Shown: positions 35,287 to 37,589 of the stretch, in pieces | Numbering within the stretch: the first letter of the stretch is position 1 | Layout of the letters: each line of letters begins with the position of its first letter | From: Candidatus Bathyarchaeota archaeon | Lineage (GTDB): Archaea > Thermoproteota > Bathyarchaeia > Bathyarchaeales > Bathycorpusculaceae | NCBI GenBank assembly: GCA_026014735.1 | Contig: JAOZHT010000002.1 | Location: 682,001 to 746,000 of the forward strand | Length of the DNA stretch: 64,000 bases | Direction: 5' to 3' | Translations under genes and position numbers: made by a program | The notes under the pieces: model-generated | What the model saw: the letters and a program-made list of their open reading frames with translations, nothing else | What the model was told of the DNA's origin: nothing | The model's database searches: none

Positions 35287-35301
35287 TATAACACTGTTAT
35301 A
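35287..35301. promoter_or_regulatory. Palindromic operator TATAACACTGTTATA at cysK
   Basis: A perfect 15-bp palindrome (ATAAC-ACT-GTTAT core at 35288-35300) overlaps the cysK TATA element. The same ATAAC-N3-GTTAT core recurs at 37450 and 37577, and with one mismatch at 36071. Confidence 0.72.
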
Positions 35302-35410
35302 ATCCTCTGCTGCGTACCTTAAAAGCTTTACCTCAACAACAACCATAACCAAACAACACCACCAAAACACCATAAACCCAGAACAACAAACCAATACTTA
35401 AAAAAAGCGC

Positions 35411-35965
35411 TCAAAGCATCCGCAGCAAATCCGCCTTCGTAATAATACCCATGATTTCACCCCTCCGAGAAACCAACACAGCCGAATACGTCTGAAGCAA
35501 ACTAGAAATCAGCGAAAGCGGAGCCTCCTCATTAATCTGGGGAAAAGCCTCCTCCATGATTCTCTCCGTGGGCTGCCGAGAAATCTCCTCTAAATCCTGC
35601 CCCGCCAAAATCTGATGCATAATAGCCTTCTCCGATATGCTGCCCACGGATTGTTTACCATCAAACACCGGCATCTGAGAGATTCCATGCTCCTTCATGA
35701 CTTTAACGACCTCTGAGACGGGGGCGGTCCTCTGTACGCTGATGACTTCATGGTGGAGGATTTTTTCGGCTTGGATCTTGGTTTTAAATTCCAGCCGCTC
35801 CAGTACATCAAAGATGGTTTTTACTTTGCTGTAAGAGGAATCTATGGTGCCTGCTTCGAGTTTAGCGATGAGGGATTGGCTGACGCCTGCGGCTTTGGCG
35901 AGTTCGCTCTGTTTGAGACCTAGTTGTCGGCGGCGTTTAGCGATGTCTTCAAGGGTTGGAAACAT
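35411..35965 (-). CDS. HTH-XRE transcriptional regulator with CBS pair
   Basis: The 184-residue protein has an N-terminal XRE helix-turn-helix (RRRQLGLKQSELAKAAGVSQSLIAKLEAG, in pieces; residues about 10-60) and two CBS motifs (about 70-180; VISVQRTAPVSEVVKVM and LQTYSAVLVSRRGEIMG). CBS pairs bind adenosyl ligands such as AMP, ATP or S-adenosylmethionine. In a methionine/cysteine island, SAM is an attractive but unproven ligand. A GTAATATTAC palindrome and TTTTGGAATAT lie just upstream, and TTTTGGAATAT also occurs before metY. Confidence 0.9.
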   Translation of the reverse strand: MFPTLEDIAKRRRQLGLKQSELAKAAGVSQSLIAKLEAGTIDSSYSKVKTIFDVLERLEFKTKIQAEKILHHEVISVQRTAPVSEVVKVMKEHGISQMPVFDGKQSVGSISEKAIMHQILAGQDLEEISRQPTERIMEEAFPQINEEAPLSLISSLLQTYSAVLVSRRGEIMGIITKADLLRML

Positions 35966-36070
35966 AATTCAGTAATGCGGGGTGGCGGTAATATTACTTT
36001 TGGAATATCCGCTTAATTTCGGCCTAAATAAACCACCAATGCGTGTGCTTTCAGAAAAGAATTAATAATT

Positions 36071-36083
36071 ATAAAGCCGTTAT
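36071..36083. promoter_or_regulatory. Operator-like ATAAAGCCGTTAT before the Cys-motif regulator
   Basis: ATAAA-GCC-GTTAT differs by one base from the ATAAC-N3-GTTAT palindrome of cysK, metY and the PP-loop gene. It overlaps a TTATAAAG TATA box and ends 14 bases before the regulator ATG, consistent with autoregulation. Confidence 0.55.
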
Positions 36084-36097
36084 GGCAGGTGATGCAT

Positions 36098-36451
36098 ATG
36101 GATCCTCAATGCGAAGTAATCGGCAAATACGTCTTACCCCTCTACCGCTCAATGCTCGCAAAAGAACTAGTGCAAAAATACCATCTATCCCAAACCGACG
36201 CCGCCAAAAAACTCGGAACCACCCAAGCCGCCATAAGCCAATACCTTAGCTCCAAACGCGCCTACAAGGGTGTTGATCAGGTTCAAGAGTTCATGCCGAA
36301 GCTGCAGGCGATGGCGGAGAATACTGCCCAGAAACTTGTTTCTAAAGAAATCAGCGCCGAGGACATTACAGTTAACTTCTGCGGGCTCTGCTCTACCTTC
36401 TGTAGACATGCCGAAAACGATGGCGCCCCAAAACCCGACTACTACATATAA
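36098..36451 (+). CDS. HTH transcriptional regulator with C-terminal CxxCxxxC motif
   Basis: A product of about 117 residues with a helix-turn-helix in the first half (YHLSQTDAAKKLGTTQAAISQYL) and a C-terminal CGLCSTFCRH motif plus an N-terminal cysteine (MDPQCE). The cysteines could bind an iron-sulfur cluster, zinc, or sense thiols. The ATG at 36098 is chosen because a near-perfect Shine-Dalgarno, AGGTGAT, lies at 36087-36093. Operator-like palindromes at its own promoter and at three sulfur genes make it the best local candidate for the sulfur regulator; this is inference. Confidence 0.84.
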   Translation: MDPQCEVIGKYVLPLYRSMLAKELVQKYHLSQTDAAKKLGTTQAAISQYLSSKRAYKGVDQVQEFMPKLQAMAENTAQKLVSKEISAEDITVNFCGLCSTFCRHAENDGAPKPDYYI

Positions 36452-36455
36452 GCCC

Positions 36456-37433
36456 CTAGATTTTTGATGCTTCAACGGTTTCTCTGCAGGGAACCTCCAC
36501 GGCAATTTGCCTATCAAACCCTAAAGCGCCAAAATGCACCTGGGCTGTTCCCGTTTTTTGATCTGAGAAAAAAGCCGTCAAACCAGCAGCCGACCGAATT
36601 GCCCTCTGGGTTTTGGGTCCCGACAGAATTGTTATTGGGCTGCCGATGATTGGGACTTCAAAAACCAAATCGCCTTTCTGTTTGGTTCTTTGCAGGATAC
36701 CGTTTTCTGCTTGGTTTCTGCCCACGACGATTTTGTTTTTGCCCACTCTGAAATGGCGGCCGACCTTAAGCTGATTAACTTCTCTTATCGTTACATGTTT
36801 TTTATGCGTGAAAAGATCGCGAAGTTTGTCTGCGAATGCTTTGTCAGTTAGCAAGCAGCCGCCGCCAGCACAAGGATAATTGGTGATGTTGAACTCCTTC
36901 ACCATCTCAAGCTGGCGTTTCCTTGATCGCCCCTTTATGTCTCGGAGCGCCTCCTGAGGCACATAGCCTTCTTTTTGGGCTTCAGTTTCAGGCAAAAGAG
37001 TCGCGGATAAGGGACGCAGGATTTTTCCTTCCAACCCGGCTTCTCTCTCGATGAGGTCAAGGGCGCCTCTATGCTGAGACATGGGACGTTGACCGAGGAC
37101 TTCGCCGGTAAAAATGAATTTGGCGCCGATTTGTTTGGCGTATTTTTTTGCTTTTTTAAGCATGAAGATGCGGCAATCGATGCAGGGGTTTAGGTTTTTC
37201 CCGTAGCCATATTTTGGGTGGCGGACGATTTTTAGGTAGTCTAGTCCTGCGTTTACTCTTTTGAGGGGGATGTTGAAGGTTTTTGCTGCTTCGGTGGCGC
37301 CGCAGCCTCCTTTTCTGCATTGGCAGAAGGGTGTGTAGAAGTTTATGGCTTCAACTTGGATGCCTTGTTGGATGATGAGTTTTACTGCGATTGTGCTGTC
37401 TAATCCGCCTGATAGTAGTCCTAGTGCCTTCAT
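36456..37433 (-). CDS. PP-loop tRNA/sulfur-transfer enzyme (MnmA/ThiI-like)
   Basis: The 325-residue protein starts with a PP-loop (GLLSGGLDSTIAVKL) and carries C-x1-C, C, and PCIDCR cysteines, then FIFTGEVLGQRPMSQ, resembling tRNA thiolation enzymes that adenylate uridine and insert sulfur. A later PCAGGGCLLTD adds more cysteines. The C-terminal third is beta-rich and may bind RNA. Substrate is uncertain: 4-thiouridine or 2-thiouridine in tRNA are the main options. An ATAAC-N3-GTTAT palindrome lies just upstream. The stop is 4 bases from that of the convergent regulator. Confidence 0.82.
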   Translation of the reverse strand: MKALGLLSGGLDSTIAVKLIIQQGIQVEAINFYTPFCQCRKGGCGATEAAKTFNIPLKRVNAGLDYLKIVRHPKYGYGKNLNPCIDCRIFMLKKAKKYAKQIGAKFIFTGEVLGQRPMSQHRGALDLIEREAGLEGKILRPLSATLLPETEAQKEGYVPQEALRDIKGRSRKRQLEMVKEFNITNYPCAGGGCLLTDKAFADKLRDLFTHKKHVTIREVNQLKVGRHFRVGKNKIVVGRNQAENGILQRTKQKGDLVFEVPIIGSPITILSGPKTQRAIRSAAGLTAFFSDQKTGTAQVHFGALGFDRQIAVEVPCRETVEASKI

Positions 37434-37449
37434 TTTCCGCCCTCAATCT

Positions 37450-37462
37450 ATAACGATGTTAT
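37450..37462. promoter_or_regulatory. Palindromic operator ATAACGATGTTAT at the PP-loop sulfur gene
   Basis: ATAAC-GAT-GTTAT lies 17-29 bases before the ATG of the PP-loop gene. A TTTTTTAAG element near 37479-37488 (minus strand) would start transcription inside it. It matches the cysK and metY sites. Confidence 0.72.
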
Positions 37463-37576
37463 GTGCTCTTGTTTTTGTAGCTTAAAAAACGTATTGGCTT
37501 CACCAGCTTATTATTCTGCAACCATAACCTTTGGGGGCCGCATATTCGTTTTGGAATATTTCTGTCAACAAGGGAT

Positions 37577-37589
37577 ATAACGCCGTTAT
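37577..37589. promoter_or_regulatory. Palindromic operator ATAACGCCGTTAT at metY
   Basis: ATAAC-GCC-GTTAT overlaps the GATATAAC TATA element of metY, the same position as at cysK. A looser inverted repeat (TGGAA-N7-TTCCA) follows immediately. Confidence 0.72.

Follow-up and report, generated by a model that had tools for sequence, protein, structure and literature searches.

Comparison of the window (the whole 64,000-nucleotide stretch of DNA analysed) with related genomes points to what looks like an old, so far undescribed switch at the sulfur genes of several archaeal phyla, made up of a palindromic site, tATAAC-RSY-GTTATa, and a small helix-turn-helix protein, REG. The comparison strongly supports a new regulon, and REG belongs to a branch without assigned function of a known DNA-binding family, this branch being present in several archaeal phyla. 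The palindrome is likely to be the operator of REG, a dimer of which would repress sulfur genes when sulfur is sufficient. A shared operator and a sulfur amino-acid regulon had been put forward in the original prediction, and both found support in footprinting, in the joint loss of site and regulator, and in the largely sulfur-related targets of relatives.

Palindromic sites in the sulfur island

Among named organisms, the closest relatives belong to Candidatus Bathyarchaeota and include Candidatus Bathycorpusculum. The genes of the island are as follows:

33213..34277, minus strand: cysE-like serine O-acetyltransferase (TIGR01172, 162 bits, below its cutoff)
34346..35281, minus strand, start at 35281 or 35272: cysK, cysteine synthase A, putative target (TIGR01139, 471.7 bits, cutoff 350.95)
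35411..35965, minus strand: HTH-CBS protein, a helix-turn-helix with two CBS domains (PF01381, PF00571)
36098..36451, plus strand: REG, proposed regulator of 117 aa, with an HTH_3-type helix-turn-helix, invariant C5, C95 and C98, and no ThiN domain
36456..37433, minus strand: PP-loop sulfurtransferase-like protein (ThiI/MnmA-like), putative target (PF02568 ThiI domain and PF18297 NFACT-R_2)
37623..38921, plus strand: metY, O-acetylhomoserine/O-acetylserine sulfhydrylase, putative target (TIGR01326, 637 bits)
38943..40052, plus strand: metX, homoserine O-acetyltransferase, downstream of metY (NF001209, 508 bits)
40015..40629, plus strand: metW (TIGR02081, 227.6 bits)

The start of metY is very probably the TTG at 37623, and not the mechanically assigned ATG at 37593, because this codon aligns with an ATG in relatives and has GGAG ahead of it; with the start so corrected, the metY site therefore begins 46 bp upstream. 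Together with metX and metW, metY forms a probable operon, and the metY-metX gene order is kept in relatives. The downstream cysE lacks a separate site (0/9 in relatives) and is presumably co-transcribed with cysK.

Exact copies of ATAAC-N3-GTTAT had been reported at 35288, 37450 and 37577, and a copy with one mismatch at 36071. These coordinates were confirmed, as was the placement of all four in core promoters:

35287..35301 (core 35288-35300), minus strand: putative cysK operator TATAACACTGTTATA, core ATAACACTGTTAT, exact, in the cysK promoter
36070..36084 (core 36071-36083), plus strand: putative operator of REG's own gene TATAAAGCCGTTATG, core ATAAAGCCGTTAT, one mismatch
37449..37463 (core 37450-37462), minus strand: putative operator of the PP-loop gene TATAACGATGTTATG, core ATAACGATGTTAT, exact
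37576..37590 (core 37577-37589), plus strand: putative metY operator TATAACGCCGTTATG, core ATAACGCCGTTAT, exact

The cysK site lies near the predicted transcription start, with a TATA-like sequence, CTTTTAAG, about 17-24 bp upstream of it. The site at the REG gene overlaps the TATA box and is degenerate at position 5 of its upstream half, and the metY site covers the TATA region. The PP-loop gene is also preceded by an exact site at the loci L076, L090 and L094. Alignment of 89 promoters refined the consensus to tATAAC-RSY-GTTATa, in which the central triplet is non-random, with GCC, AGT, ACT, AGC and ACC prevailing.

In the whole genome (2,913,801 bp), only four exact sites were found, three of them within these 2.3 kb and the fourth inside coding sequence, in a sugar-nucleotide epimerase-like reading frame; a reversed control pattern gave three exact matches. 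Dinucleotide-preserving shuffles predict 0.04 exact matches in the window, and three sites in 2.3 kb, given four per genome, correspond to a Poisson p of about 5e-9 for an interval chosen post hoc. Allowing one mismatch raised the genome-wide count to 99, vs 67 for the control, with loss of specificity. Since most of those sampled among the roughly 95 added places fell in coding DNA, the motif is informative outside the island in its full form only, and the one-mismatch scan was discarded as a source of further targets. In this genome, promoter sites front only cysK, the PP-loop gene, metY and REG.

Association of the site with REG and with sulfur genes

Comparison across genomes demonstrated that the site is conserved, that it is linked to the gene of the regulator and that its targets are sulfur-related in nature. 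Homologues of REG turned up in 48 of 61 relatives, some of the matches being more distant paralogues. Footprinting covered 80 homologous REG loci across archaeal phyla, which are related to one another, so that the counts are not independent; a site was scored when it had at most one mismatch and lay no more than 75 bp ahead of the REG start, and expectations were taken from flanking DNA. The site was present in 57 of the 80 loci, with about 0.6 expected. Loci of the Bathyarchaeota type contributed 44/51 (0.5 expected) and those of other phyla 13/29 (0.12 expected), no site being found within 75 bp upstream of REG in the remaining 16 of these 29. In most homologous loci, the site occupies the same place, mostly 25-45 bp before the REG start codon. 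Its single mismatch falls on the C of the upstream half in 37 of 45 cases, often giving ATAAG-N3-GTTAT, which is a conserved weakening that would likely provide weaker autoregulation or serve as a TATA box.

The presence of the site at target promoters also followed that of the regulator. The metY promoter carried an exact site in 16/16 genomes with REG vs 0/2 without it, the metY of both REG-less genomes being only 53-54% identical. A cysK site with at most one mismatch was found in 19/20 genomes with REG (17 exact) vs 2/10 without (Fisher p=6e-5; REG absence was judged in same-genus genomes, many of them drafts, and relatives are not independent, so p-values are guides only). The exceptions are G056, where REG is present and the cysK site absent, and G001 and G012, which kept an exact cysK site although REG was undetected. 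Across the genus, the ratio of exact sites to reversed controls was 146:77 in genomes with REG and 64:88 in those without. The scan of related genomes upstream of cys and met genes, suggested at the outset as a check, therefore located the motif at metY and cysK and tracking REG; the proposal that the protein encoded at 36098 is a regulator with a site of its own is likewise supported by footprinting and co-loss.

These data bear on whether the palindrome might be a mere AT-rich core-promoter element, an extended TATA box that is symmetric by chance. A TATA-like sequence is indeed overlapped in the metY and REG promoters, but such an element would neither be limited to four exact copies in 2.9 Mb nor vanish together with REG; moreover, the GTTAT half has no TATA role, and the cysK site lies near the start point with a separate TATA-like sequence upstream. 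This explanation is thus extremely improbable.

The targets were surveyed in two relatives with expanded regulons (G003 and G022) and in others. Exact sites were detected ahead of an operon encoding PAPS reductase, ATP sulfurylase, a sulfite/nitrite-reductase-type protein and TusA, ahead of a sulfite-reductase-type gene facing one for an NMT1-type transporter protein, and in front of genes for cystathionine beta-synthase and gamma-lyase. DsrE, OsmC, NifS-NifU, ThiF, ThiS, Thi4 and ThiI are further targets, and some exact sites front genes without an obvious link to sulfur (those of membrane proteins, a BcrAD-type ATPase and ABC transporters). The neighbours of REG in distant lineages include DsrE-TusA-NifS-NifU in Sulfolobales and NifS in Brockarchaeota. 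In Thermoplasmata, REG lies either beside CysK-CysE-CysS or beside ThiI and a class-V aminotransferase; in other Bathyarchaeota, the neighbours include FdhD and NifU, as well as PAPS reductase-ATP sulfurylase.

The densest regulon seen is that of a 36.6-kb contig (L142-L143, contig 90 of G003) with 13 exact sites, in which sulfur genes (DsrE, metY, sulfite-reductase-type, TusA) occur among transporter and other genes. In another relative, an exact site precedes the gene of a DtxR-type iron-dependent repressor (L101:9600-10327), hinting at a cross-link between iron and sulfur.

Proposed repression and a possible second input at metY

From these comparisons we infer that REG binds directly and as a dimer, that it represses and does not activate, and what signal it senses. 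A REG dimer would sit on the palindrome, at the TATA box or immediately downstream of it, and would keep the transcription machinery from assembling at the REG gene itself and at cysK-cysE, the PP-loop gene and metY-metX-metW. In archaeal promoters, a repressor sited at the TATA box or start point blocks TBP/TFB or the polymerase, and repression is favoured here because the sites overlap the TATA element (REG, metY) or lie near the start point (cysK). As the targets serve acquisition and biosynthesis, sulfur sufficiency would keep the uptake and transfer genes repressed and sulfur shortage would release them. Against an operator exclusive to REG stands the ThiR-type paralogue, whose own gene has the site as well.

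The same site and regulator could instead work by activation, or in a mixed mode, when sulfur is scarce. The sign of control is not readable from sequence, and the archaeal regulator SurR does both with one motif (PMC8595942); nevertheless, sites at the TATA box or start point, as in REG, metY and cysK, are poorly positioned for an activator, and the site at the regulator's own gene likewise coincides with the TATA box, as in autorepression. Activation is consequently considered unlikely.

The island contains a second palindrome, ATATTC-N6-GAATAT:

37542..37559, plus strand: second palindrome ATATTCGTTTTGGAATAT, in the metY promoter
35991..36008, minus strand: second palindrome with one mismatch, over the TATA region of the HTH-CBS gene

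The start of the second palindrome precedes that of the ATAAC site by exactly 35 bp in the metY promoters that were compared. A single copy is shared by metY and the HTH-CBS gene when these are divergent neighbours; when they lie apart, as in the window, each has its own. This palindrome is probably the operator of the HTH-CBS protein, which is proposed as a second regulator acting on itself and on metY, so that metY seems to receive input from both REG and the HTH-CBS protein. Adenosyl compounds are frequent ligands of CBS domains, which makes SAM a candidate for the second signal at metY. The idea that the HTH-CBS protein itself binds the ATAAC site draws on its being an adjacent regulator and on a one-mismatch ATAAC site at its promoter in two relatives; it is hard to reconcile with the different palindrome at its gene and with an ATAAC site that follows REG across phyla, and is given very little credence. 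Neither the second palindrome at the metY and HTH-CBS promoters nor the kinship of REG with ThiR had been noticed in the original prediction.

The REG protein among known regulators

A Pfam search with REG returned HTH_3 and a sub-threshold HTH_ParB match only. The AlphaFold model has an all-helical fold (mean pLDDT 76.6), and its tail beyond residue 104 is of low confidence; a PDB sequence search with REG gave no match, and a Foldseek search with the model gave none below E=0.001, the best matches being mostly HTH-type DNA-binding proteins. A CxxCxxxC motif had been read as an iron-sulfur sensor, a claim rejected in that form, as the third cysteine is present in just 7 of 87 family members. 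C5, C95 and C98 are invariant, also in ThiR-type (HTH-ThiN) proteins and in the other paralogue of the same genome. Because this invariance extends to ThiR, an iron-sulfur sensor is unproven; the three residues may form a structural metal site, a cluster or a thiol switch. The other paralogue, on contig 4 (L111:6989-7366), is 28% identical to REG and has the same three cysteines, with no ATAAC site nearby.

ThiR is the archaeal HTH-ThiN regulator of thiamine genes (Rodionov et al. 2017, doi 10.1128/JB.00743-16, cited in PMC12029414). In the alignment, its N-terminal DNA-binding HTH module is homologous to that of REG, and C5, C95 and C98 are common to both. The profile A1 search also finds homologues of REG of 320-340 aa, and proteins of 318-323 aa from the same profile carry PF10120 ThiN (e.g., L315 and L316). 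ThiR has a C-terminal ThiN ligand-binding domain and a thiamine regulon, whereas REG, at about 117 aa, has no ThiN, and its conserved targets are sulfur genes, with Thi4 in one relative. Since it lacks ThiN, REG is not a ThiR; it is a short, ThiN-less relative. Two of four ThiR-type genes have the ATAAC palindrome at their own promoter, one exact and one with one mismatch, which points to an operator type common to ThiR and REG. The promoters of the HTH-ThiN genes of L315 (243-1199, minus strand) and L316 (699-1670, plus strand) carry ATAACTAAGTTAT or ATAAGTAGGTTAT at -25.

Given the DNA-binding module common to REG and HTH-ThiN proteins, and Thi4, ThiI, ThiS and ThiF as targets in some relatives, REG might sense intermediates of the thiamine pathway or of tRNA thiolation, as ThiR does, and not sulfur supply. 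This is quite improbable: REG has no ThiN domain, and its recurring targets are cysteine and homocysteine synthesis, sulfate reduction and cysteine desulfurase. Rather unlikely, though conceivable, is a broader reading in which REG together with its operator forms a master switch of ancient archaeal origin, older than the split of several archaeal phyla. ThiR would then have branched off later and acquired its ThiN sensor, and sulfur status would be read directly by REG through C5/C95/C98. If true, its scope would be sulfur assimilation and trafficking (cysteine, methionine, Fe-S and thiocofactor sulfur). On the family tree, whose branching order is not firm given the small number of alignment columns, the ATAAC motif is clustered yet patchy.

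In the open-licence literature, no paper on the REG family in sulfur control was found, nor a described archaeal transcription factor for cysteine, methionine or sulfate assimilation. Many archaea, both cultured and uncultured, can now be examined for this protein, the 15-bp operator and the listed targets, sulfur-responsive genes become predictable in metagenomes, and a possible role is suggested for many short ThiN-less relatives of ThiR.

The known archaeal sulfur regulator, SurR, governs sulfur respiration in one order: it is an ArsR-type protein unique to Thermococcales that binds GTTn3AAC and whose targets lie in elemental-sulfur respiration and hydrogen metabolism and not in assimilation (PMC8595942, PMC7278568). 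Both proteins are archaeal, act or would act on sulfur-related genes and have a CxxC pair (the invariant C95xxC98 in REG). However, SurR has an ArsR-type winged helix, in contrast to the HTH_3 match and all-helical model of REG, and the REG site, AACn3GTT, has its half-sites in the opposite order. REG resembles the archaeal TATA-overlapping autoregulated repressors in having a palindrome, linked to the regulator, over the core promoter of its own gene and of its putative targets. The bacterial MetJ, MetR and SahR belong to regulator families that are unrelated to REG, as are their operators. What they have in common with the proposed system is a dedicated operator and regulator for met genes (PMC4239095).
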